This document shows positions 1 to 10,870 of a stretch of DNA of 11,564 bases, piece after piece. The DNA lies in contig CALFBV010000227.1 in assembly GCA_937951395.1 (NCBI GenBank), forward strand, positions 1-11,564, given 5' to 3'. The DNA is from an uncultured Rubritalea sp. GTDB lineage: Bacteria > Verrucomicrobiota > Verrucomicrobiia > Verrucomicrobiales > Akkermansiaceae. Numbering within the stretch: position 1 is the first letter of the stretch; each line of letters opens with the position of its first letter. The notes below the pieces were generated by a model. It saw only the letters and a program-made list of their open reading frames with translations, did no database searches and had not been told where the DNA came from. The translations under genes were made by a program, and so were the position numbers.

Positions 1-345
1 GGTCCCATTTATTCTCTGGGCGATTCTATTTCTATCAAATTTCTTAGTCTTATTTCCCACTATATCAAACAGATCAAACTGATCCTCTTTGAGTCGCATA
101 TGAAACCTCTTTTCCACATTTGCCACCTTATAATGGAACTGAATATTTTGACCTCTAAGAAATAGCGATACAGGTGTCTTACGTCCGTCTTTTTTCATAT
201 GCCCGTGCAAGTCTTGCTGCTGAAGGGTGGCTGCATACCTAGCTCCACGCAGCACCTGCTCAGCCGCGGCATCTGCTTGCGCAGTCACTGTCGTAAAAGC
301 TGACATGCTGGCTATTACCATCGTTGTGATCCATCTGTTTCTCAT
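1..345 (-). CDS. Exported LolA-like (outer-membrane lipoprotein-sorting-like) protein, C-terminus cut by window edge
   Basis: Reading the minus strand from the ATG at 345-343 gives 115 codons with no stop before base 1, so this is the N-terminal part of a gene that continues left of the window. The first 24 residues form a signal peptide: MRNRW, a hydrophobic stretch (ITTMVIASMSAF), then AQA as the probable signal peptidase I site. The mature part begins DAAAEQVLRGARYAATLQQ, followed by alternating strands with SLFLRGQNIQFHY and FHMRLKEDQFDLFDI. This layout (AAEQVL helix, 'L.G.....GRKTP', then beta strands) resembles LolA-like outer-membrane lipoprotein-sorting proteins of Verrucomicrobia, which would act in the periplasm. 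The family call comes from memory of the pattern, not a search; a generic secreted beta-rich protein is the alternative. The gene is divergent from fumarase across 107 bases and has no Shine-Dalgarno sequence. Confidence 0.72.
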   Translation of the reverse strand, partial: MRNRWITTMVIASMSAFTTVTAQADAAAEQVLRGARYAATLQQQDLHGHMKKDGRKTPVSLFLRGQNIQFHYKVANVEKRFHMRLKEDQFDLFDIVGNKTKKFDRNRIAQRINGT

Positions 346-351
346 GCTAGA

Positions 352-379
352 AAAGTAACACTTCATACTCATATGACAA
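352..379 (-). promoter_or_regulatory. Predicted promoter of the LolA-like gene, leaderless type
   Basis: On the minus strand, TTGTCA (379-374, five of six matches to TTGACA) is separated by 16 bases from TACTTT (357-352, the TAnnnT core of a -10 box). The next 6 bases lead straight into the ATG at 345, so the usual +1 would be the A of the start codon. No GGAGG-like site precedes the ATG. Predicted by eye only. Confidence 0.45.
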
Positions 380-418
380 CTAGAAGTTGAATTTTATTCA
401 TCAATAATCATTTTTTTC

Positions 419-446
419 TTCATCATCCCCTATCGCTTATTATGAT
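419..446 (+). promoter_or_regulatory. Predicted promoter of fumarase, leaderless type
   Basis: TATGAT (441-446, five of six matches to TATAAT) ends 6 bases before the fumarase ATG at 453, placing +1 on the start codon. A -35 element is weak: TTCATC at 419-424 with a 16-base spacer. The upstream stretch 395-440 is AT- and pyrimidine-rich, and no Shine-Dalgarno sequence is present. Confidence 0.38.
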
Positions 447-452
447 GCATCC

Positions 453-2084
453 ATGTCCACACCAGAATTTCACTACCAGAAGCCCTTCCCACTCGGCCCA
501 GACCAGACGGAGTATGAGCTCATAAGTACCGAAGGGATCTCAGTTGAGAAGCTGGGAGATAGAGAAATTCTTACTGTGAGTCGTGAAGCAATCACTAATC
601 TAGCGAACGAGGGATCGAAGGCGATCTGCTTTAAGTTGCGCTCATCTCACCTGAAGCAAGTAGCCGCTATTCTGGATGACCCTGAGGCTTCAGATAATGA
701 CAGAATGATGGCGCTCACTCTTCTTAGAAATGCAGAGATAGCGGCAAATGGCATATTACCAAACTGCCAAGACACTGGCACTGCCATCGTGATGGGGAAA
801 AAGGGTGAGAATGTTTATACCGGATTCGATGACGCAGAAGCGATCTCTCACGGTATTTACAAGACCTACACTGAAGAAAATTTACGCTACTCACAAGCTG
901 TCCCACTCAGCATGTATGAGGAAATGAACTCTAAGACCAACCTTCCCGCCCAGATTGATCTCTACGCGACGTCTGGCGACAGCTACGAGTTCCTCTTCAT
1001 CTCAAAAGGTGGAGGCTCAGCGAACAAGACATTTCTCTATCAGGAGACTAAAGCTTTACTAAATCCAGACACACTTAAATCATTTTGTGTCGCTAAAATG
1101 GCAACACTTGGCACATCAGCCTGTCCTCCTTATCACCTCGCCATCGTCATTGGTGGTACATCCGCTGAGATGAACCTTAAGACAGTGAAAATGGCATCAA
1201 CGCGTTACTATGATGAGCTTCCTACTACAGGAAATGAACACGGTAGAGCATTCCGTGATGTTGACTTGGAGAAAGAATTATTAACACTTTCGGGCGAGAT
1301 TGGCATTGGCGCGCAGTTTGGCGGTAAGCATTTTGCGCTTGATGTTAGAGTGATCCGACTTCCGCGTCACGGAGCATCATGTCCTGTGGGAATTGGAGTT
1401 TCATGCTCAGCTGACAGGCAGGCAAAAGCAAAAATCACCAAGGAAGGAATCTTCCTGGAGAAGCTAGAAAGCAATCCAGGGCAGTTCATCCCAGATAAAT
1501 TCCGCGACTGGAAATTCAATGGCGTAGAAATAGATCTCGATCAAGGCATGGAGAAGACCTTAGCCACACTCACAAAATACCCAGTCACCACTGCTCTATC
1601 GCTCAGCGGCACCATCATGGTGGCTCGCGATAGCGCTCATGCGAAGCTCCGTGAAATGTTAGACTCAGGAAAAAGTCTGCCTGACTACGTCAAAGACTAT
1701 CCCATTTACTACGCAGGCCCTGCAAAGAAGCCAGAGGGAATGGCCTCTGGATCGTTCGGCCCTACAACTGCTGGAAGAATGGATACCTACGTGCCTATTT
1801 TCCAAGCAGAAGGAGCATCCATGGTGATGCTAGCAAAAGGAAATCGTTCCCAGATCGTGACCGATTCCTGTAAAGAACACGGAGGTTTCTACCTAGGATC
1901 TATGGGTGGACCCGCAGCCATCCTAGCGCAAAACCACATCAAGTCCGTAGAAGTAGTAGATTTCCCAGAGCTAGGAATGGAAGCAGTATGGAAAATCACC
2001 GTAAAAGACTTCCCCGCCTTTATTTTGGTAGACGACAAAGGCAATGACTTCTTTCAAACGATCAATAACTGCCCTGCTTGCTAA
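453..2084 (+). CDS. fumA: Fumarate hydratase, class I (iron-sulfur, FumA/FumB type)
   Basis: This enzyme interconverts fumarate and L-malate in the TCA cycle, in the cytoplasm, using an oxygen-sensitive [4Fe-4S] cluster. The 543-residue protein is full length for the fused class I form (about 548 in E. coli). Residues 1-330 correspond to the Fe-S-binding alpha-type domain and about 340-543 to the beta-type domain. The three cluster cysteines are visible: C105 in NCQDTGTA, C224 in [11 protein letters not shown] and C318 in [11 protein letters not shown], at the same numbers as the E. coli ligands as I remember them. The C-terminal part carries [28 protein letters not shown] and LGSMGGPAA, all typical of the family. 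The ATG at 453 is the only in-frame start near the N-terminus; two upstream ATGs (442, 445) are out of frame. It stands alone, with no partner TCA gene beside it. Whether it is the FumA or FumB orthologue cannot be told. Confidence 0.95.
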
Positions 2085-2087
2085 TAC

Positions 2088-2102
2088 AGAACAATCTGTT
2101 CT
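2088..2102 (+). other. Small inverted repeat just after the fumarase stop
   Basis: AGAACA (2088-2093) and TGTTCT (2097-2102) form a perfect 6-base inverted repeat around a 3-base centre, 3 bases after the fumarase stop codon. It is AT-rich and not followed by a T run, so it is a poor intrinsic terminator. It could be an mRNA 3' hairpin or a chance palindrome. Confidence 0.2.
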
Positions 2103-2142
2103 CATCTGTGCGTTGTCAAAGGCTTGGCTACAATCTGACGGC

Positions 2143-2159
2143 CATCCTCTTAGAGGATG
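2143..2159 (+). terminator. Possible terminator hairpin downstream of fumarase
   Basis: CATCCTC (2143-2149) pairs perfectly with GAGGATG (2153-2159) around the loop TTA, giving a 7-base stem. It is followed by a T-rich but interrupted stretch (CTTTCAGGTTCTTT). It lies about 60 bases past the fumarase stop and ahead of the antisense transposase remnant, a sensible place to end the fumarase transcript. The broken T tract keeps this tentative; it could instead belong to the damaged insertion sequence. Confidence 0.35.
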
Positions 2160-2178
2160 CTTTCAGGTTCTTTCGTAT

Positions 2179-2484
2179 CTAAGACATCAATGAAAATATC
2201 ATACTCCCCATAAATGGAACCAGATCCCAAACCCGATCAATCATTTTGCTATACTTCTGTAAAATTAAAATCTTCAACATTAACACTGGATCAAAAGGAG
2301 GGCGACCACCTTTCTTATTATCTTTAGAACTATAGCCTGTCACATCCTCCATCAAACCTCGGAAGCCTTCCCAATCAATAATTTTGTTCAGCTTCAAAAT
2401 CCCAACCTCTTGCGTTTCTTGAGCTCGTTTCTTGGATATAGCACTAAAAAGATCGTAGTTCTTGGATGGCTTACGGTAGTTCAT
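2179..2484 (-). pseudogene. IS5-family transposase, N-terminal remnant
   Basis: The reading frame from the ATG at 2484 opens with residues that match the N-terminus of IS5-type DDE transposases: KLNKIIDWEGFRGLMEDVTGY (about 31-51), a basic stretch, then GGRPPFDPVLMLKILILQKY (about 59-78). In intact relatives of about 300 or more residues this is followed by 'LSDEATEFQI.DR.SF..FLGL' and the DDE catalytic domain. Here only a short unrelated-looking tail (SKMIDRVWDLVPFMG...) remains before a stop at residue 102, so the catalytic domain is absent. MIDRV may be the far side of an internal deletion joined to QKY. No DDE residues survive and the element cannot transpose by itself. The start codon is preceded by AAAGGC and a TAnnnT hexamer, possibly the old transposase promoter. 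Confidence 0.8.
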
Positions 2485-2562
2485 GCCTTTAAACTACTTT
2501 CTGATAAGAAAAATTAAATACTTTAAAATGTAAACCGGGCTCAGAGGTTTCCAGAAGTGCCC
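2179..2562 (-). mobile_element. Decayed IS5-like insertion sequence, right boundary tentative
   Basis: The transposase remnant is the clear part. About 50-80 bases upstream of its start lies a stretch that reads, on the minus strand from 2562, GGGCACTTCTGGAAACCTC, which resembles the general style of IS5-family terminal inverted repeats. No matching repeat was found between 2085 and 2178, so the distal end seems deleted. No target-site duplication could be identified. The boundary is a guess; only the presence of a remnant is well supported. Confidence 0.4.
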
Positions 2563-2579
2563 ATAAGATGATTTTTCTC

Positions 2580-2608
2580 TTGGTGAATAGGAGGGTCGTG
2601 ATTGTAAT
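2580..2608 (+). promoter_or_regulatory. Predicted promoter of the serine protease gene, leaderless type
   Basis: TTGGTG (2580-2585), a 17-base spacer and TGTAAT (2603-2608, five of six matches to TATAAT) are followed by 6 bases and the ATG at 2615. A GGAGGG at 2590-2595 lies about 20 bases before the start, too far to serve as a normal ribosome binding site, and would fall inside the spacer. A second candidate, CTGATA-N17-TAAAAT (2501-2529), would give a leader of about 80 bases that includes this GGAGGG. Confidence 0.42.
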
Positions 2609-2614
2609 AGCACA

Positions 2615-3415
2615 ATGAATAAACTGAAATTAGGTCTGTTGGTTACCATAAGCTGGATCACCGGAGTTAGCTTAGTGGGGTGTGCTGATAATAATACGTC
2701 TGGAGTTTCCTATGTGACCCGTTCTATTAAGGTAGCTGATATGCCGGTGGCGTATGATGATCCGGGGATTTTTAAGAAGTATGATGCGCTCGGTGATAGT
2801 GTGATGAATACTACTTGGACGAGGAAGTTTGATGCGTCTGGGATTTCATTTAATGATAAGCGGACTTGCACGCTGGTGACTCGGCAACATGTGGTAATGG
2901 CGGCACATTATAAACGTAAGATTCCTAGTTCCGTAGTGTTTCATGACAGGAATGGTAAACGGTTAGAGCGAGTGCTAGTGGCGGCTAAAAATGTACATGG
3001 TGACTGTGCGGTGGGTTTGCTGAATACACCAGTGCCTGCGGGCTATAAGGTGTATCCATTGCTTGCCCCGACAGCGGGCTTAGTAGAGAGGCTGAGAGGG
3101 GAATTTGTCATAGTAACTGATCAGAATAAACGTTTATTTGTCCACGAGGTGGGTGGTGTTTCTGGAGATAGAATATTCTTCCGCTATGATGCTAAGAAGC
3201 AGCTAGGTTATGGAAAAATGTTAGTCAGTGGTGATAGTGGGAATCCATCATTCATTATGGTGAATGGTGGGCCTGTGCTGATAGAGACGCATCACACAGG
3301 TGGTGCGGGAGCTGGACCTTTTTATGGGAGCGCGGTTCTGATAGAGAAGCTTAAGGCGCAGATTACAGCACTGGGTGGAGTGAGCGCTGGATCTGTTAGA
3401 GTTGTGAACTTTTAG
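2615..3415 (+). CDS. Chymotrypsin-like serine protease, predicted lipoprotein
   Basis: The 266-residue protein starts with a lipoprotein signal peptide: basic MNKLK, a hydrophobic core, and the lipobox-like LVGC ending at C23, so it is probably lipid-anchored after export. The rest looks like a trypsin-like S1-type domain. A catalytic triad can be placed as H98 (VVMAAHY), D130 (VHGDCAVGLL) and S208 (VSGDSGNPS), in the right order and spacing. C85 and C131 could form a disulfide. There is no PDZ domain, which separates it from DegP/HtrA proteases; the substrate is unknown. In-frame codons before the ATG run into a TAG at 2588-2590 without another usual start, which fixes the N-terminus. The gene sits next to the insertion-sequence remnant and its stop is 5 bases from the stop of an opposite-strand frame. 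Fold and triad are read from motifs, not from a search. Confidence 0.78.
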   Translation: MNKLKLGLLVTISWITGVSLVGCADNNTSGVSYVTRSIKVADMPVAYDDPGIFKKYDALGDSVMNTTWTRKFDASGISFNDKRTCTLVTRQHVVMAAHYKRKIPSSVVFHDRNGKRLERVLVAAKNVHGDCAVGLLNTPVPAGYKVYPLLAPTAGLVERLRGEFVIVTDQNKRLFVHEVGGVSGDRIFFRYDAKKQLGYGKMLVSGDSGNPSFIMVNGGPVLIETHHTGGAGAGPFYGSAVLIEKLKAQITALGGVSAGSVRVVNF

Positions 3416-3420
3416 CCGTC

Positions 3421-3630
3421 TTACCTATTCTCTGCTTTGACCGGATTGACAGGAAGGAACTTGAGATACTTGTGTTCGTTTTTTTCTACCCACTCGTGGT
3501 TTTGCTTGATGAGGACTTTATTAGTGGCTGTTAGATACTTGAGCTTGAGGTAGACTGTTGGTTTTACTTTAGGCTGTGCTTTCTGCGTCGCTTGATTGAG
3601 TTTTTTTGATTCGAGTGTGATGGTTTTCAC
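3421..3630 (-). CDS. Doubtful small protein of unknown function (possible 5'-damaged gene)
   Basis: A GTG at 3630 opens a 69-residue basic, lysine-rich frame (KKLNQATQKAQPKVKPTVYL, then IKQNHEWVEKNEHKYLKFLPV) that ends 5 bases from the convergent protease stop. I do not recognise it. The same frame stays open for a further 63 codons upstream, to a stop at 3820-3822, and the extension also reads like protein (RRSYSPANIYELAETHSSQEE, then GARFFHILVSVKPV). No ATG exists on this strand between 3845 and 3631 in any frame, and the GTG has no ribosome binding site. Either the GTG is the start of a short protein, or a non-standard start lies upstream, or this is the 3' part of a gene that has lost its beginning. 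It follows dxs on the same strand and could be transcribed with it. Confidence 0.3.
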   Translation of the reverse strand: MKTITLESKKLNQATQKAQPKVKPTVYLKLKYLTATNKVLIKQNHEWVEKNEHKYLKFLPVNPVKAENR

Positions 3631-3845
3631 TGGTTTAACGGATACGAGGATATGGAAAAACCTAGCTCCCTCTTCTTGGCTAGAGTGTGTTTCTGCTAGT
3701 TCGTAGATGTTAGCCGGGCTATAGCTTCTTCTTGAGAATTTATTACTACGAGCTGATTGAACCCTTATTGGATCTAAAATGTTCTTGGTGATGAAGCTCC
3801 AGCGCCTCTGGGGGTGAGTTTAACTGTAGAATAAGGGGTTGTTTC
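3631..3845. other. Gap between dxs and the small frame; no assignable gene
   Basis: This stretch lies directly after the dxs stop on the minus strand. It holds the start-less upstream part of the doubtful small frame (open from 3819). I saw no hairpin with a T run, no RNA gene and no promoter that I could support. Plus-strand frames here are very short. Confidence 0.4.
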
Positions 3846-5732
3846 CTAGAGATGACGTTGCACCAATGTTACGGCATTCTCAGCTGTTAGACCGTGCTTC
3901 TCTCTGAGAACGTCTACTTTTCCGTGTTCGACAAATTCATCCGGCCAGCCAATTCGCTCTACTGGTGTGCAGATGCCTGAGGTGTGGAGTAGCTCGATGA
4001 TGCTGCTTCCAAATCCATTCATGAGAACGTGATCTTCGAAGGTGCAGATTACTTTGCATTTCTGAGCATACTCAGTGATGAGCTTGGCATCGAGTGGCTT
4101 GATCCAGCGAGGGTTTATGAGAGCTACTGAGTAGCCCTGAGCTTCTAATTTAGTCTTGGTTTCGACTGCCATCTCGAAAAGGTGACCGAGTCCGATGAGG
4201 CAGATATCTGATCCGTCCGCTACGAGTTCAGCTTCACCGATAGTGAGAATTTCAGGGGAAGTCTTAGGTTTAGCTCCTACGCCAGCGCCACGAGGGAATC
4301 TGATACAAGTAGGGCCATCATTGTAGGTCGCCATGGTGTGAAGCATGTCTACGAATTCGTCTTCATCCTTAGGCTGCATGTGGATGAGGCCTGGAACGTG
4401 ACGGAGATATCCGATGTCAAACAAACCGTGGTGCGTAGGTCCATCATCGCCGCTGAGACCAGCACGATCCATGCAGAGGCGCACAGGTAAGTTTTGCAGG
4501 GCGATGTCATGAATGATCATGTCATAGGCGCGCTGCATGAAGGTAGAGTAGATGGCTAGAAAGGGTTTGAATCCTTCGCAGGCATGGCCACATGCAAACA
4601 GTGCTGCGTGCTCTTCAGCGATCCCTACATCAAAGTAACGTTCGTTGAGTTCGTTCTTGAAAATATCTAGTTTTGTCCCGCCTGGCATCGCAGCGGTGAT
4701 CGCGGTGATCTTCTCATCCGCCTTAGCCATATCAGTTAGAGAGCGGCCAAAAATTTCTGAGAAAGTAGGAAGAGGGCCGGCTGCAGTTGATCCGTCTTCT
4801 TGCTTGTAGGGTCCTAGTCCATGGAATTTCCCTGGGTTGTTTAAAGCAGGAGTGTATCCTTTTCCTTTTTCGGTGATAGCGTGGAGAATAACTGGTTCAT
4901 CTTGCTCCTTGAGATATTCGAAGGTGTCGATTAGTGAATTTACATCGTGTCCCTTGACTGGTCCGTAATAACGGATGCCGAAGTTCTCGAATAGGACGTT
5001 CTCAGAGAAGAGGTTCTTAGCTCCTTGCTCAACTTTATGAGCTAGCTTACGGAGGCTGCTTCCCGCAAATTTTTCTAATAAATCTGCTGATTTCTTTCTG
5101 ACAGATGAGTAGGTAGGGCTAGTTTGAAGGCTGTTAAAATAGCGTGAAATAGCACCTACGTTTTTGTCGATGGACCATTCATTGTCGTTGAGGACGACGA
5201 TGAATTTTTTGGTGGTGTCATTGATGTTATTGAGTGCTTCTAAAGTAGGGCCACAAGTGAATGCCGCATCACCCGCAAAAGCGATGACGTGGTTATCTCC
5301 ACCGGAGAGATCTCTGGCAGATGCCATTCCTAGTGCGGAAGAGAGGGCTGTTCCTGCATGCCCTGCACCATAGGAGTCGTGCTCAGACTCGGTTCGTAGG
5401 AGGAAACCATTGAGTCCTTCGTAGGTCCTAATGGTGTGGATTTCATCTGCTCTGCCTGTAAGCATTTTATGCACATAGCCTTGGTGTGAGACATCAAAGG
5501 TCATCTTATCCGCCGGGCTATCGAACACATAGTGCATAGCGATGCAGAGTTCCACAACGCCGAGGTTTGGCCCTAAATGACCACCTGTGACGGAGAGTCG
5601 GGTAATTAGTACCTCGCGGATCTCTTCAGCGAGTAACGGCAGGTCAGTGCGGTTGAGTTTCTTGAGATCATCGGGGGATTTAATTGTCTTTAGGAGACGT
5701 GGTAATTCAGAAGAGTCGGATTTCATCGTCAT
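3846..5732 (-). CDS. dxs: 1-deoxy-D-xylulose-5-phosphate synthase
   Basis: This enzyme condenses pyruvate with glyceraldehyde 3-phosphate to DXP, the first step of the MEP pathway to isoprenoids and a precursor of thiamine and pyridoxal cofactors. It needs thiamine diphosphate and Mg2+ and is cytoplasmic. The 628-residue protein has the family's usual length and three-domain order: ThDP-binding domain (about 1-315, H52 in GGHLGPNLG, the ThDP motif from GDAAFTCG at 154 to LNDN at 181), pyrimidine-binding domain (about 320-490, catalytic Glu at about 373 in IAEEHA, then YSTFMQRAYDM and DRAGLSGDDGPTHHG) and C-terminal transketolase domain (about 495-628). Two normally constant sites differ: GDG is GDA, and GHQAY is SHQGY. 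The ATG at 5732 overlaps the 3' end of xseB by 26 bases, suggesting translational coupling; ATG at 5726 is an alternative start two codons in. Confidence 0.96.
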   Translation of the reverse strand: MTMKSDSSELPRLLKTIKSPDDLKKLNRTDLPLLAEEIREVLITRLSVTGGHLGPNLGVVELCIAMHYVFDSPADKMTFDVSHQGYVHKMLTGRADEIHTIRTYEGLNGFLLRTESEHDSYGAGHAGTALSSALGMASARDLSGGDNHVIAFAGDAAFTCGPTLEALNNINDTTKKFIVVLNDNEWSIDKNVGAISRYFNSLQTSPTYSSVRKKSADLLEKFAGSSLRKLAHKVEQGAKNLFSENVLFENFGIRYYGPVKGHDVNSLIDTFEYLKEQDEPVILHAITEKGKGYTPALNNPGKFHGLGPYKQEDGSTAAGPLPTFSEIFGRSLTDMAKADEKITAITAAMPGGTKLDIFKNELNERYFDVGIAEEHAALFACGHACEGFKPFLAIYSTFMQRAYDMIIHDIALQNLPVRLCMDRAGLSGDDGPTHHGLFDIGYLRHVPGLIHMQPKDEDEFVDMLHTMATYNDGPTCIRFPRGAGVGAKPKTSPEILTIGEAELVADGSDICLIGLGHLFEMAVETKTKLEAQGYSVALINPRWIKPLDAKLITEYAQKCKVICTFEDHVLMNGFGSSIIELLHTSGICTPVERIGWPDEFVEHGKVDVLREKHGLTAENAVTLVQRHL

Positions 5733-5979
5733 CGTTGCTTGGTGATTCAGGGGGTGGAGTGGTGGATTTATCAGTGGTGTTATTGGCGATTACTTCTAAC
5801 CTTTTCTTGGCTGAGTTGAGGAATGTCTCACAATCTTTGTGAAGCTTGGCACCTCTCTCAAATTTATCAATAAGTACTTGCAAGGGGAGCTGATCTTCTT
5901 CCATGGATATCACTATTTCTTCTAATTCGGCAACAGCCTCCTCGAAGGTGAATTCTTTTGTGGTTGTTTTTTTCGGCAT
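5707..5979 (-). CDS. xseB: Exodeoxyribonuclease VII small subunit
   Basis: XseB is the small subunit of exonuclease VII, which degrades single-stranded DNA from both ends together with the large catalytic subunit XseA. The 90-residue protein fits the family (about 70-90). After a basic start it shows the conserved helical-hairpin core: FTFEEAVAELEEIVISMEED, then LPLQVLIDKFERGAKL and a helix ending AKKRLEVI. The tail from about residue 68 is acidic and proline/serine-rich (TTPPPESPSNDDDE) and looks disordered. xseA is not in the window. The gene starts 17 bases after the glycosyltransferase stop and overlaps dxs by 26 bases. Neighbouring xseB and dxs is a common arrangement in many bacteria, often with ispA between, which is missing here. 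No Shine-Dalgarno sequence precedes the ATG. Confidence 0.93.
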   Translation of the reverse strand: MPKKTTTKEFTFEEAVAELEEIVISMEEDQLPLQVLIDKFERGAKLHKDCETFLNSAKKRLEVIANNTTDKSTTPPPESPSNDDDEIRLF

Positions 5980-5996
5980 GTTGGATGATTGCAGTA

Positions 5997-7802
5997 TTAT
6001 TTTTCGTCTGGCTCCTGTTCGCGTGTTGCTGGATCTATGTTTGTGTATAACGTATAGGCATATGAAGACCAGTGTTGTATGGGGCTTTCAACGATGGGAA
6101 CGCGGTAGTTATAGCGGCCTGATGTAGTTGATACAATAGGTTTGGTTACAGGAGACGCTTCTGCGTATGGCACACCACCTAGTTGCATTCCTAAAAGATT
6201 ATAGGTTAAAGGAGCTAGATCGGAGTAGACGTGTTGAGTGTTCATTGCTTGGTTGCCATCTCGGATAGAGGGAGTCATAAAGATGCCGACTATGGAAGCC
6301 CTATTTTTCTCGGCGATCTCCTCAATTTTTATTAACTGCTTTGAATCACTAGGTAGCCAGATAGCCGTTCTGTCTGCGTACCATGCTACTGCCCATGGCT
6401 GATCAGTAATTACTATTTCGGTGTCTTCGACGTAATTTGTTAAAACTTGATTATGTGTGTATGGTGAATAGCCCAGAACAGTTTTCTGGTGAGTCCTAAA
6501 GTCATTTTGTAAGTTGATAATCATTGGAGTAGCTGTGATCAAAATAATAGCTATGAATGGAATAAGGCTGGCTATGCCTGGCTGCTGACTCAGTGGAATA
6601 CGTGCCCATAATATACTTATCAATGCCAAGGCAAATGCAGACATCATCGGCATGAATAAGATGTGCATTTGATTTGGGTCTAGTGGGTTAGAGGATAATC
6701 CGTAAACTGACATGCCTAGCGCGGCAGTGATCCACATAATGAATATAGCCCATTTGAATGCTGCTATACTATTTCTTTTAAATGGATGGAGCAAAGCGAG
6801 AAAGAATCCTGTCGCCATGAAGAACCCCCCAATGTGAGTATGAATTTGGTTTGCTTGAAAAAGTGTAGTCTTGATCACGCGTAATGCTAGGTCTCGTACG
6901 TTCATAGCAGGAAGGGATAGCTGTCTAAAGCTGTAATCTTGGGCTATTCCAGTTTGGCCATTGATGTAATAGTAGGCTGTGCCCATCAGACCGTCACTAT
7001 TTTTGGCATTGAAAATTAGTGGGCCCGCTATGAAAATAGCAACAGTGAGGGTGATGAAAATAGCAGAGATCCCTCGGGGTTTGAAATAGCTGATACAGAA
7101 GATGATATATCCCAAGAATATCCATAAAGTCATCCAGTGGGCTAAGGCAAGCAAACCAAACATAAAGCCTGATAGAATCACAGGAACGATGGCTGAGAGC
7201 CCTGCTTCTTGTCTCTGGATTGCTTTCCATATTAAGTAGCAGGCTGCGGAGAAAATAGTAAGCATCAGCATCTGTGGTAATCCAGATTTAGAAAAGTTCC
7301 AAAAATGTTCACTAAAAAGCATCAGAATGGCAACGATGGAGGCGATTTTGGTATCAAATATGTTTGAGATTAAGATGAAGTTAATTCCGATAGAGATCAT
7401 GAAGAACAGTACACAAGTTCCTGCTATGACTCTGTCTAGTTCATAAACGTTCTGGTTTTTGGACATCGCATAAGCATCTGGCGCATCGCCTCCAAAGGCC
7501 TTAATTACACCTGCATAGATGAGAACGTTGAGAGGTGAGTGGGTAGTATCATAGAAGTGATACATGTCGACCGGCTTATTAGATTCCTCTAATTGTTGAA
7601 GCGCTACAGGTCGAATGAATTTTGTAGTGATGCCGTGTCCCTTAGCAACCTGACGGCCAATTTGAGCTTGGTCCATGCCGTATTTGGAAGTTAGCCCTTT
7701 AAAGGTGAACATGATGTAGATGATCGCTAAGCTGATCATCAATGTGAAAAATAGGATTCTATAAATAGCTGATTTCGTGTTTATAGGTTTTTGCGCTTGC
7801 AT
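5997..7802 (-). CDS. Membrane glycosyltransferase, GT-C superfamily (GT39-like)
   Basis: The 601-residue protein has about ten or eleven transmembrane segments (first at about 12-34; others near 125-148, 153-166, 176-194, 203-240, 247-265, 322-340, 349-367, 378-399 and 410-429) and a C-terminal soluble part (about 432-601). The first external loop has the GT-C pattern: YGMDQAQIGRQVAKGHGITT, with D44 as the presumed catalytic aspartate, then FIRP and further on YDTTHSPLNVLIYAG. Enzymes of this type move a sugar from a polyprenyl-phosphate carrier to lipid, protein or glycan on the outer face of the inner membrane; donor and acceptor cannot be told from sequence. The C-terminal part (TEIVITDQPWAVAWYADRTA...) is typical of GT39-like proteins. 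It begins 33 bases after the response regulator. Its carrier would derive from the MEP pathway, so the downstream dxs is a possible functional link. No ribosome binding site is evident. Confidence 0.8.
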   Translation of the reverse strand: MQAQKPINTKSAIYRILFFTLMISLAIIYIMFTFKGLTSKYGMDQAQIGRQVAKGHGITTKFIRPVALQQLEESNKPVDMYHFYDTTHSPLNVLIYAGVIKAFGGDAPDAYAMSKNQNVYELDRVIAGTCVLFFMISIGINFILISNIFDTKIASIVAILMLFSEHFWNFSKSGLPQMLMLTIFSAACYLIWKAIQRQEAGLSAIVPVILSGFMFGLLALAHWMTLWIFLGYIIFCISYFKPRGISAIFITLTVAIFIAGPLIFNAKNSDGLMGTAYYYINGQTGIAQDYSFRQLSLPAMNVRDLALRVIKTTLFQANQIHTHIGGFFMATGFFLALLHPFKRNSIAAFKWAIFIMWITAALGMSVYGLSSNPLDPNQMHILFMPMMSAFALALISILWARIPLSQQPGIASLIPFIAIILITATPMIINLQNDFRTHQKTVLGYSPYTHNQVLTNYVEDTEIVITDQPWAVAWYADRTAIWLPSDSKQLIKIEEIAEKNRASIVGIFMTPSIRDGNQAMNTQHVYSDLAPLTYNLLGMQLGGVPYAEASPVTKPIVSTTSGRYNYRVPIVESPIQHWSSYAYTLYTNIDPATREQEPDEK

Positions 7803-7835
7803 AGGAATGATAGGGGGGTGTTGGAATTTTGTAGG

Positions 7836-9257
7836 TTAAAGGTCTTTTAATTTACGGTGGAGCGTGCGTCTGCTGATGCCTAAAAGTTCGGCTGCTGTTG
7901 TCCGATTCCCTCCAGAGTGGTCTAGCGCTCTCTTAATAGTCATTTTCTCTAGCGCACTCAAGTTGAAATCGGCTGGTTTCGCAAGACTGTTTTTTGTTTC
8001 GGCATCAGTTATTACGTTATTTTCTAGAGAGGAGTCATTTTTGAGCAGGAAACTAGGCAAATGCTTAGGATGGATGAGCGAGTCATTACTCATCACGACC
8101 CCATGTTCTATCGCAGTGCGGAGCTCTCGGACGTTTCCTGGCCATCGATAATTTTGTAGAAGGTTTGCAGCCTCATCACTGAGTGGTTTTTCTTCACGCT
8201 TGTTCTCTATCGTAAATTCTTTAAGGAAAGCATTTGCTAACAAGATGATGTCTTCTGATCGTTTTCGGAGTGGAGGCATTTCAATTTTCACCACATTGAG
8301 ACGGAAAAACAGATCTTCTCGGAAATCACCCTTTGCCACCATTTTACGGAGATTTTTGTTGGTAGCGGTCACCACTCTCACATCTACCTTCACCTGCGTG
8401 TTAGACCCTACTCGTTCAATGGTTTTCTCGCTCAGGACGCGTAAGAGCTTTACTTGAGTGGCTTGGTCGATCTCGCCTATTTCATCTAAGAAAATAGTTC
8501 CGCCACTAGCCTGCTCGAACCTGCCTATCCGTTTTTGAGACGCGCCGGTGAATGCTCCTTTCTCATGGCCGAATAGTTCACTTTCTAGTAATTGTGGACT
8601 GAGGGCGGCGCAGTTCACAGTTACCATTTTATCCGCAGGTCTGCCACTCATCGCGTGGATCGCCCCGGCTACTAGTTCCTTACCCGTGCCACTTTCTCCC
8701 TCGACTAATACAGTGGCTTTCGTGGGGGCTATCTGAGTGATCATTTGGTGGATTTGCGCCATGGCGGGGGAGCTGCCGATGAGCCGCTCTAGTCCGTGAG
8801 GAGATTTGCCTGTGTCCTTGCGGAGTTGCTGGTTCTCTTGCTCTAGTTTGACAATTTTAGTCTCTTGTTTGCGTCCACGCAGTGCGCGCTTGATAAGCAT
8901 TTCCACTTCGTCCAGATTCAGTGGCTTAGTCACGAAATGCCATGCGCCGCGCCTCATCGCCTCCACTGCGGTATCCACACTTCCGTAGGCAGTCATCATG
9001 ATGGCGATAGGTGCGTGAGGGTGGGGCAGAGTGAGCGCCTGATCTAGCAGATCCATTCCGTTGTCGCCGCCCATTCGTAGGTCAGTGAGCATGAGATCTA
9101 CCTTCTCGCTTTTGAGAATATTCATCGCCTCGCGGATGTCAGATGCCACATAGCAATCAAAGTTATCCTCCAGCGCTAGGCGTAGTCCATCACGCGTAGA
9201 TTTCTCATCATCCACGATTAGTAATACTGCATCACTCGATTCATTAAAGTCTATCAT
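7836..9257 (-). CDS. Sigma-54-dependent response regulator, NtrC family
   Basis: The 473-residue protein has the full NtrC-type layout. The receiver domain (about 10-125) shows the acidic pair D16-D17, phospho-acceptor D59 in MLTDLRMGG, T89 and K111. The AAA+ domain (about 158-390) shows Walker A GESGTGKE (187-194), the sigma-54 contact loop GAFTGA (234-239), Walker B TIFLDEIGE with D258-E259 and RWPGNVREL (371-379). A Fis-type helix-turn-helix occupies about 437-471 (GGNRTTAAELLGISRRTLHRK). It should remodel the sigma-54 closed complex when phosphorylated. Its ATG overlaps the kinase stop in an ATGA, so the two genes are translationally coupled and are a cognate pair. The intact GAFTGA means the genome should encode sigma-54. 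Target genes are unknown: I found no -24/-12 element in the window. Confidence 0.95.
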   Translation of the reverse strand: MIDFNESSDAVLLIVDDEKSTRDGLRLALEDNFDCYVASDIREAMNILKSEKVDLMLTDLRMGGDNGMDLLDQALTLPHPHAPIAIMMTAYGSVDTAVEAMRRGAWHFVTKPLNLDEVEMLIKRALRGRKQETKIVKLEQENQQLRKDTGKSPHGLERLIGSSPAMAQIHQMITQIAPTKATVLVEGESGTGKELVAGAIHAMSGRPADKMVTVNCAALSPQLLESELFGHEKGAFTGASQKRIGRFEQASGGTIFLDEIGEIDQATQVKLLRVLSEKTIERVGSNTQVKVDVRVVTATNKNLRKMVAKGDFREDLFFRLNVVKIEMPPLRKRSEDIILLANAFLKEFTIENKREEKPLSDEAANLLQNYRWPGNVRELRTAIEHGVVMSNDSLIHPKHLPSFLLKNDSSLENNVITDAETKNSLAKPADFNLSALEKMTIKRALDHSGGNRTTAAELLGISRRTLHRKLKDL

Positions 9258-10468
9258 TCTTCAGATTCTACATCGATTAAAGGTTTGCTCGCATCACTTT
9301 CTAACATCCGCACATGCTTTTCTATCCTTGGGAAGTATAAATTCACTGTAGTTCCTTTATTCTCCTCACTATCTATTTCCATTTCTCCACCATGCTCGCG
9401 CAGAATCCGGCGAACAATGAGCAGACCTAGACCGGTGCCAGATTTCTTAGTCGTGCGGAATGGCTCGAACAACGCACCCATATGCTCAGGTGAAATGCCT
9501 TTCCCGTTATCAGCGATGCTCATCACTATCTCGTGATCAGTAAATTTAGTCCCAATCGTGATCTGTCCATCATCCTTAGTCAGTGCTTGGGCTGCATTTC
9601 GGATCACATTATAAATAGCCTGCTGGATCTGTCCCGCATCGAGATCGATCAGAGGTAAGTTTTCTGCTAGCTCCAGGTTCACTTTCACATCGCGCTCTAT
9701 CAATTCAGCCTCTAGCGTTTCCAGAGTGTCGCGAAGCACATTATGTAGCGGCACCTTCTCGCGGACTGAGTCCTGTGGACGTAGTGCATGGAGGAACTGC
9801 TTTAAAATGTTATCCAGCCGCTTGATCTCCTGTTGCGCTGTTCCCAAAAGTGAGTTCAAGTCCTCCTTCTCCTGGCCCTTTAGCTTATTGATCTTCCTGC
9901 CGAGTAGCTGCAGGTGAATATCCAGCGAAGTGAGAGGGTTTCCTATCTCATGAGCCACGCCTGCAGCCAGAAATGTCAGTGCATTCAGCTTCTCGCTTTC
10001 TAAGCTCTCCTCATGTGCCTTCTTGCTTTCTGTGATGTCATGGATCAGCATCACATAGCCTAGATGTTCCTCCTCATTCCCCACCTGCCCATTGATTGGC
10101 GCTAGATAGAAATTTAAAAATCTATTCTCAGGATAAAATACCTCCATATCTCGAGTCACTACCCTGTCCGGGTGCGCCAGACTGTTCCAGTCTAGTCCGC
10201 GGATCACCGAGTTTACTTTCTGGCCGATACAGCGCGTAGTATCCACGCCTAGCAGCTGATGCACAGCTCGGTTCGCAAAGGTGATGTTTCCATCCGGATC
10301 CACAATAAACACGCCCTCACGGAGTGCTTCGAAAACACTCTCCATGAAGCCTTTCTCGCGCACTAATCTCGATACTAAGTTCTGCACCTCGCTCGGTGAG
10401 AATCTATCTAGTCTCGTGATTAATTTATCCAGAAAACCATCCTTCATATGCGCGACACATTGGCACAC
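9254..10468 (-). CDS. Soluble PAS-domain sensor histidine kinase
   Basis: The 404-residue protein has no transmembrane segment or signal peptide, so it senses a cytoplasmic cue. A PAS domain (about 40-148: EALREGVFIVDPDGNITFAN, ending MLIHDITESKK) is followed by a HisKA dimerisation domain with phospho-acceptor H173 in AAGVAHEIGNPLTSL and a HATPase_c domain (about 275-382) with N-box N287/N291 (YNVIRNAAQAL), G1 box DNGKGI (320-325), F box FEPFRTT and G2 box GTGLGL. The H-box and NtrC partner make it NtrB/AtoS-like. The start is uncertain: GTG at 10468 is only 2 bases after a strong AAAGGAGG, while the next in-frame start, ATG at 10447 (codon 8), is 23 bases after it. An in-frame TAA four codons before the GTG excludes a longer protein. 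It heads the minus-strand gene run. Confidence 0.94.
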   Translation of the reverse strand: MCQCVAHMKDGFLDKLITRLDRFSPSEVQNLVSRLVREKGFMESVFEALREGVFIVDPDGNITFANRAVHQLLGVDTTRCIGQKVNSVIRGLDWNSLAHPDRVVTRDMEVFYPENRFLNFYLAPINGQVGNEEEHLGYVMLIHDITESKKAHEESLESEKLNALTFLAAGVAHEIGNPLTSLDIHLQLLGRKINKLKGQEKEDLNSLLGTAQQEIKRLDNILKQFLHALRPQDSVREKVPLHNVLRDTLETLEAELIERDVKVNLELAENLPLIDLDAGQIQQAIYNVIRNAAQALTKDDGQITIGTKFTDHEIVMSIADNGKGISPEHMGALFEPFRTTKKSGTGLGLLIVRRILREHGGEMEIDSEENKGTTVNLYFPRIEKHVRMLESDASKPLIDVESEE

Positions 10469-10470
10469 TG

Positions 10471-10478
10471 CCTCCTTT
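10471..10478 (-). promoter_or_regulatory. Shine-Dalgarno sequence oddly placed for the histidine kinase
   Basis: Minus-strand AAAGGAGG is the strongest anti-16S match I see near a start in this window. It is 2 bases before the GTG at 10468, closer than the usual 5-9, and 23 bases before the in-frame ATG at 10447. No in-frame start lies at the ideal distance; the ATG in TGCCAATGTG is out of frame. The same stretch overlaps a weak -10-like TAAAAG 6 bases before the GTG. Confidence 0.45.
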
Positions 10479-10503
10479 TATGCAATCTCGCATTCCTTTA
10501 AAG

Positions 10504-10531
10504 TTGCGCCCATTGATGAAGCTCATAGAAT
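10504..10531 (+). promoter_or_regulatory. Predicted promoter of cutA, leaderless type
   Basis: TTGCGC (10504-10509), a 16-base spacer and TAGAAT (10526-10531, five of six matches to TATAAT) end exactly 6 bases before the cutA ATG at 10538. The predicted +1 is the A of ATG. A GAGG at 10532-10535 lies only 2 bases from the ATG, too close to act as a normal ribosome binding site. Confidence 0.45.
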
Positions 10532-10537
10532 GAGGCT

Positions 10538-10870
10538 ATGTTCAAGAAAATCAGCGCGCGTCCCATCACAGTATTCACCACATTTCCTGATGGCGAATCT
10601 GCTAAGAAGTTCGCCAGGATGATCGTGGAAGAAAATCTCGCAGCTTGTGTAAATCTGATCAAGGGAGTGGAGTCTATTTACCGTTGGGAAGGCAAGATCT
10701 GCACGGATGAGGAAATCATGATTATTATAAAGACGAATAACAAGCGCCTCGATGCCCTGAAAAATCTCTTGTTAAAAGCTCATCCTTACGACCTGCCAGA
10801 ATGCATTGTGCTAGAAATTTCAGATGGACAGCAGCCTTACCTAGATTGGCTTACTAAGGTTTCTGAATAA
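10538..10870 (+). CDS. cutA: Divalent-cation tolerance protein CutA
   Basis: CutA is a small trimeric protein with a PII-like ferredoxin fold, linked in E. coli to copper and other divalent-metal tolerance; its exact role is unsettled. The 110-residue length is typical. The family motifs are visible in order: TVFTTFPDGESAKKFA (about 11-26), VEENLAACVNLIKGVESIYRW (about 30-50) with the conserved cysteine at about 37, EEIMIIIKT, and HPYDLPECIVLEI with the Tyr-Asp-Leu-Pro-Glu core, then PYLDWL near the end. It is divergent from the histidine kinase (69 bases apart) and its stop is 16 bases from the stop of the convergent acyl-CoA reductase gene. No other metal gene is nearby. The start is the first ATG, with the leaderless-type promoter in front. 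Confidence 0.94.
   Translation: MFKKISARPITVFTTFPDGESAKKFARMIVEENLAACVNLIKGVESIYRWEGKICTDEEIMIIIKTNNKRLDALKNLLLKAHPYDLPECIVLEISDGQQPYLDWLTKVSE

Follow-up and report, generated by a model that had tools for sequence, protein, structure and literature searches.

The window, that is, the whole stretch of 11,564 nucleotides that was analysed, comes from a genome assembly of 1,522,264 bases (1.52 Mb) in 243 contigs, which is 58% complete. Pfam assigned domains of a class I fumarase, dxs, xseB, cutA and a LuxC-like end, and further those of a histidine kinase with PAS domains and of a response regulator bearing a sigma-54 activator domain. Upstream of four genes a −10-like hexamer ends exactly 6 bases before the ATG: TACTTT (357–352, minus strand) for a LolA-like gene (1..345, minus strand, cut by the window start, with a predicted leaderless start at ATG 345), TATGAT (441–446, plus strand) for fumarase (453..2084, plus strand; PF05681/PF05683; predicted leaderless from ATG 453), TGTAAT (2603–2608, plus strand) for a gene read as a protease in an earlier note on this DNA (2615..3415, plus strand; no Pfam match at E 0.001), and TAGAAT (10526–10531, plus strand) for cutA (10538..10870, plus strand; PF03091; predicted leaderless). 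Identity to TATAAT amounts to 3 of 6 positions for the LolA-like gene and 5 of 6 for each of the other three. A −35-like TTG element is found 16 bases upstream of TACTTT (TTGTCA, 379–374, minus strand), 17 bases upstream of TGTAAT (TTGGTG, 2580–2585, plus strand) and 16 bases upstream of TAGAAT (TTGCGC, 10504–10509, plus strand); for fumarase there was none in the scanned region −60..−21.

On re-reading the sequence, the four hexamers with their coordinates, their distance of 6 bases from the ATG and the three TTGs 16 or 17 bases further up all agreed with the earlier note, and the internal genes xseB, dxs and the regulator lack the signature as it had said, with identity to TATAAT at 1–2 positions. 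Its statement that every clear lead gene carries the signature was wrong: the PAS/histidine kinase gene divergent from cutA (9254..10447, minus strand, ATG 10447) has TGTGTC at −12..−7. Of the five clear lead genes four thus carry the signature, and among these the protease-like gene is a doubtful case. When the four upstream regions were subjected to 5000 dinucleotide shuffles, none attained the TATAAT match sum when the offset was fixed, whereas 0.06% (n = 5000) attained it at some common offset of 3–11 bases, which is no clean probability because the four genes had been picked beforehand.

Orthologues were screened for [TC]AnnnT at fixed distances from the start codon, leaving the own row and unresolved starts out of the counts. 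For fumarase (20 loci of 31 matches, 19 counted) the motif ends at −7 in 6 and at −8 in 4 of 19, spread over the genus, its family and a second family within the order (P 4.5e−7 by a simple binomial that ignores relatedness). Among the 15 more distant Verrucomicrobiota loci in the 80 fumarase matches listed, 12 were resolvable, with the motif at −7 in 0/12 and at −8 in 1/12. Since the near orthologues often have the signature and the 12 distant loci lack it at −7, it looks, for fumarase, like a property of the source lineage and its nearer relatives. For cutA (15 loci, 12 counted) the motif lies at −7 in 2/12, at −8 in 3/12 and at −6 in 2/12, and the cutA locus of G005 (L190) has TTGTGA at the same distance as the window's TTGCGC. 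At the loci L192 (G006) and L193 (G004), histidine kinase and cutA diverge from start codons separated by only 12–13 bases, so that a cutA promoter must there overlap the kinase coding region.

The LolA-like gene owes its label to the orthologue in G005, which matched PF17131 (LolA_like); the window's own 115-residue piece gave no Pfam match. Its −10-like hexamer, in the extended form TGTTACTTT, is contained in a 17-base block directly 5′ of the ATG, AGTGTTACTTTTCTAGC (346..362, minus strand). Upstream regions were viewed for 11 of the 29 genomes with a match, and 10 were readable, the contig of G008 ending before the block. With up to 2 differences the block is present in 8 of the 10, namely the own genome, G009, G005, G001, G006, G004, G011, where an insertion of three bases separates the block from the ATG, and G018, which is another genus; G010 has kept part of it and G007 none. 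TAnnnT at 6 bases from the ATG was found in 7/10, own included. The element TTGTCA is kept at L170, L172 and L357 and is TTGTCT at L363; it is absent from the corresponding place at L358, L359 and L364.

As the frame is open upstream of ATG 345, with in-frame ATGs 366 and 372 as rival starts, the block could be coding (MKCYFSSM). For this gene alone, translation may start from ATG 366, TACTTT then being Tyr-Phe codons of a conserved N-terminus; M[K/N]CYFSS is readable in 7 genomes, the two changes of G004 and the one of G006 within the block are synonymous, and with a query that included the upstream stretch the protein matches from several other genomes extended to residues 1–2. Against this, the codons TGT, TTT and AGC have zero synonymous changes in 8 genomes while the signal peptide after them diverges freely; G018 has kept the block with the upstream ATG replaced by AAC (an in-frame TTG lies further up); and in G010 the upstream ATG begins a frame of six codons, MGCYCE, that overlaps the LolA-like start codon and has its stop there. 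The coding explanation appears rather unlikely, and the fixed synonymous positions together with the upstream ATG missing in G018 favour a DNA element. Conservation of the block from −17 to −1 is unusually strict, beyond the needs of a promoter. Tried as a regulon motif, the block gave 74 genome matches at up to 3 mismatches vs 52 for the reversed pattern; one match was exact (the window itself) and two had one mismatch.

For the protease-like gene (9 of 13 loci used, 3 counted) the −10 position was found in 0/3 resolvable orthologues, and TTGGTG is not conserved either. A leaderless promoter is here unproven. Of the earlier reading of all four genes as leaderless, the part on fumarase, cutA and the LolA-like gene is supported by orthologues, and the part on the protease-like gene is not. 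A transposase gene remnant (2179–2565; 101 aa, with a weak match to DUF772 under the cut-off) lies upstream; at 2484 it too has TAGTTT 6 bases ahead of its ATG, and it was left out of the counts as a mobile element. The adjoining stretch from 2480 to about 2562 has seven further copies in the genome at 76–100% identity and ends about 18 bases upstream of the protease-like −35.

Positional statistics were obtained from 80 of the 243 contigs plus that of the window (499,678 of 1,522,264 bases), from two relatives at 400 kb each, G004 (same genus) and G029 (another family of the order), and from control sets of 14 Enterobacteria and 22 Bacteroidota loci, chosen by name from the 80 fumarase matches listed. 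Genes were called in all sets with one home-made gene caller in which starts were allowed to move upstream. Starts were taken as strict if they were ATG, preceded by an in-frame stop at a distance of at most 19 codons and not followed by another ATG among the next nine; background was the mean count per position over −45..−14. With [TC]AnnnT, one of four patterns run, the hexamer ends at −7 in 27 of the own 176 strict non-internal starts vs a mean of 8.06 (maximum 15), in 13/129 vs 4.5 for G004 and in 10/91 vs 2.0 for G029. There was no peak of this pattern at −7 in Enterobacteria (4/87 vs 4.3) or Bacteroidota (10/151 vs 8.7). Without the window the own count is 25/171 (mean 7.9). Plain TAnnnT gave 18/176 (mean 4.7) for the own genome, 4/91 (0.75) for G029 and no significant peak for G004 (4/129 vs 2.4), and the two other variants gave weaker own peaks (9 vs 3.4 and 12 vs 4.7). 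A lack of positional TAnnnT enrichment across lead genes had been named in the earlier note as a result that would refute it; the enrichment is present. Own internal genes have [TC]AnnnT at −7 in 4/65 (mean 2.3), a weaker excess in small numbers, and genes with a co-directional neighbour 21–99 bases away have TAnnnT in 10/97. A pyrimidine at −1 is found in 88% of own matches, 73% of non-matches and 49% of internal genes; this is not specific, the Bacteroidota values being 80%, 70% and 63% in the same order.

Shine-Dalgarno (SD) 4-mers were near or below control in the four own gene classes (observed/control 11/10, 1/8, 5/11 and 15/14), operon-internal genes having them in 15/88 at −20..−5 vs 14/88 in the control stretch. 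The same script returned a strong SD signal for Enterobacteria, and SD words above control for the internal genes of G029 (9/44 vs 2/44). The lack of an SD before the four window genes, which the earlier note had put forward, is real and says little, because no gene class of this genome shows SD enrichment. The 16S tail GGATCACCTCCTTT, with CCTCC, is intact in all 9 related 16S loci that were viewed of 17, one belonging to the same family and eight to the order; as neither the own genome nor its genus yielded a 16S, the own tail is taken from these relatives.

Among the matches at −7, TTG occupies −36..−34 in 10/27 for the own genome and 5/13 for G004; by label permutation this coupling has P 0.002 for the own genome without the window (9/25) and P 0.008 for G004. 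It was not significant in G029 (2/10, P 0.25), Bacteroidota (1/10, P 0.71) or Enterobacteria (0/4, P 1.0). TG at −15/−14 was not clearly enriched (3/36 own matches vs 12/217), so that an extended −10 is not general. The coupling bears on the idea that TAnnnT near −10 is a translation signal, an AT-rich unstructured site of ribosome entry on mRNAs that do have leaders. A start signal of another kind is indeed needed where SD enrichment is missing from every own class, and in Bacteroidota TATAAT-like hexamers are commoner ending at −10 and −9 (38 and 30 of 151, mean 16). That excess is not at −7, however, the motif is weaker before operon-internal genes, and a TTG one promoter spacer upstream, coupled to the motif in the own genome and G004, is predicted by a promoter and not by a translation signal, which makes the ribosome-entry explanation very unlikely and argues for the promoter reading.

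Three further genes were followed in the same way. For an M42 peptidase, a lead gene elsewhere in the genome (18 loci used out of 30, with 12 at 28–35% identity taken as paralogues; 13 counted), [TC]AnnnT stands at −7 in 7/13 and at −8 in 3/13 other genomes, and the DNA around the −10 differs widely (P 1.7e−9, again a simple binomial that ignores relatedness). Sua5, also picked for the motif, has kept it in 1/21 orthologues only (30 loci, 21 counted), and a thioesterase, likewise picked, in 3/20 (23 loci, 20 counted), the three being distant (about 30% identity) and the two close orthologues lacking it. Reciprocal best matches of the own genome with G004 and G029 left 7 and 4 usable pairs, too few. 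That the four window cases arose by chance, from AT-rich upstream DNA read after the fact with a loose consensus, has in its favour that TACTTT agrees with TATAAT at half its positions, that the protease-like and Sua5 motifs are not conserved and that the histidine kinase and distant fumarases lack the signature, but is quite improbable given a peak at a single position in the own genome and two relatives, its absence from two control groups, and the conservation at −7/−8 among near orthologues of M42 peptidase and fumarase.

Fumarase and cutA are very probably leaderless, this being what best explains the data, and the LolA-like gene, with its rival upstream starts, is probably so too. In the first two and, with less certainty, in the third, the hexamer would be the −10 of an ordinary housekeeping-sigma promoter that abuts the start codon. 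The polymerase would open the DNA at TAnnnT, and we infer that it starts on the A of the ATG or one base off, leaving no leader. Ribosomes would then start on the 5′-terminal AUG, which is known for other leaderless mRNAs and would be workable in a genome without an SD signal.

The excess at −7, (27−8)/176, corresponds to about 11% of strict non-internal starts, probably an underestimate, as genuine −10 elements often depart from the pattern. An EM promoter model placed 0.25 of the own starts at offset 0, to be read as an upper figure only, since just 0.003 was left in ‘none’ and the model is therefore overfitted; applied unchanged, it gave 0.16 for own internal genes, 0.08 for G004, 0.04 for G029, 0.01 for Enterobacteria and 0.016 for Bacteroidota. 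Leaderless starts would thus account for roughly 11–25% of strict non-internal starts, a minority and not clearly a main mode of initiation, as which the earlier note had proposed them. That note has the right kind of finding and, broadly, the right interpretation; it includes a gene that is unproven, misses one exception and overstates how far the pattern reaches.

The geometry of the window's genes is that of the bacterial ‘TA-led’ genes described by Zheng et al. 2011 (PMC3160421), in which the first T of TANNNT lies about 12 bases upstream of the start and the hexamer is the −10 box of a transcript with no leader. The main text of that paper, in which the word Verrucomicrobia does not occur, gives the top bacterial shares to Deinococcus-Thermus, Aquificae and Actinobacteria. 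In Akkermansia muciniphila, a gut species that also belongs to the order Verrucomicrobiales, 10% of the start sites obtained by Cappable-seq fall on annotated start codons (PMC4782308); there they were measured, whereas here they are predicted from sequence alone. A like arrangement is reported from an unrelated phylum, Deinococcus-Thermus, where TANNNT a few bases before the ORF acts as −10 and an added −35 raises expression (PMC12340547); here, the TTG −35 is found in the fraction of own matches given above. Among the literature matches listed, none was by title a survey of leaderless genes in Verrucomicrobiota or Akkermansia. Leaderless starts are a known mode of gene start, which here seems to serve a sizeable minority of genes in a little-studied verrucomicrobial lineage.

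SD-scarce genomes with conserved CCUCC include Akkermansia muciniphila and another verrucomicrobial genome (PMC10783764), and the present genome is like them in its background level of SD words and, judging from its relatives, in its intact tail. A tentative extension to all Verrucomicrobiales would hold that the SD is largely disused with the anti-SD intact, and that promoter-fused leaderless starts are one of two standard start modes, the −10 being held to about 1 base within a genus; it is doubtful, and made less probable by the SD words of internal genes in G029 and by the 12 distant fumarases without the signature at −7. Within the lineage, leaderless promoters would be recognisable from sequence in an uncultured organism, which has a bearing on start-codon annotation in its verrucomicrobial genomes, and orthologue sets, that of the M42 peptidase foremost, have kept the −10 position while the surrounding DNA changes. 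The question raised is how the other genes start without SD signals while related genomes keep the anti-SD.

The fumarase of G004 (G004:C1:2697432-2699059) was matched in two pieces, residues 1–482 and 483–543, so that its frame seems to be broken, or the assembly to be in error. The best fumarase matches among those listed are Verrucomicrobiales records. Enterobacterial and Bacteroidota class I fumarases, also among the matches listed, are 63–68% similar, about like several other Verrucomicrobiota, and from this similarity class I fumarase may have been transferred between phyla.
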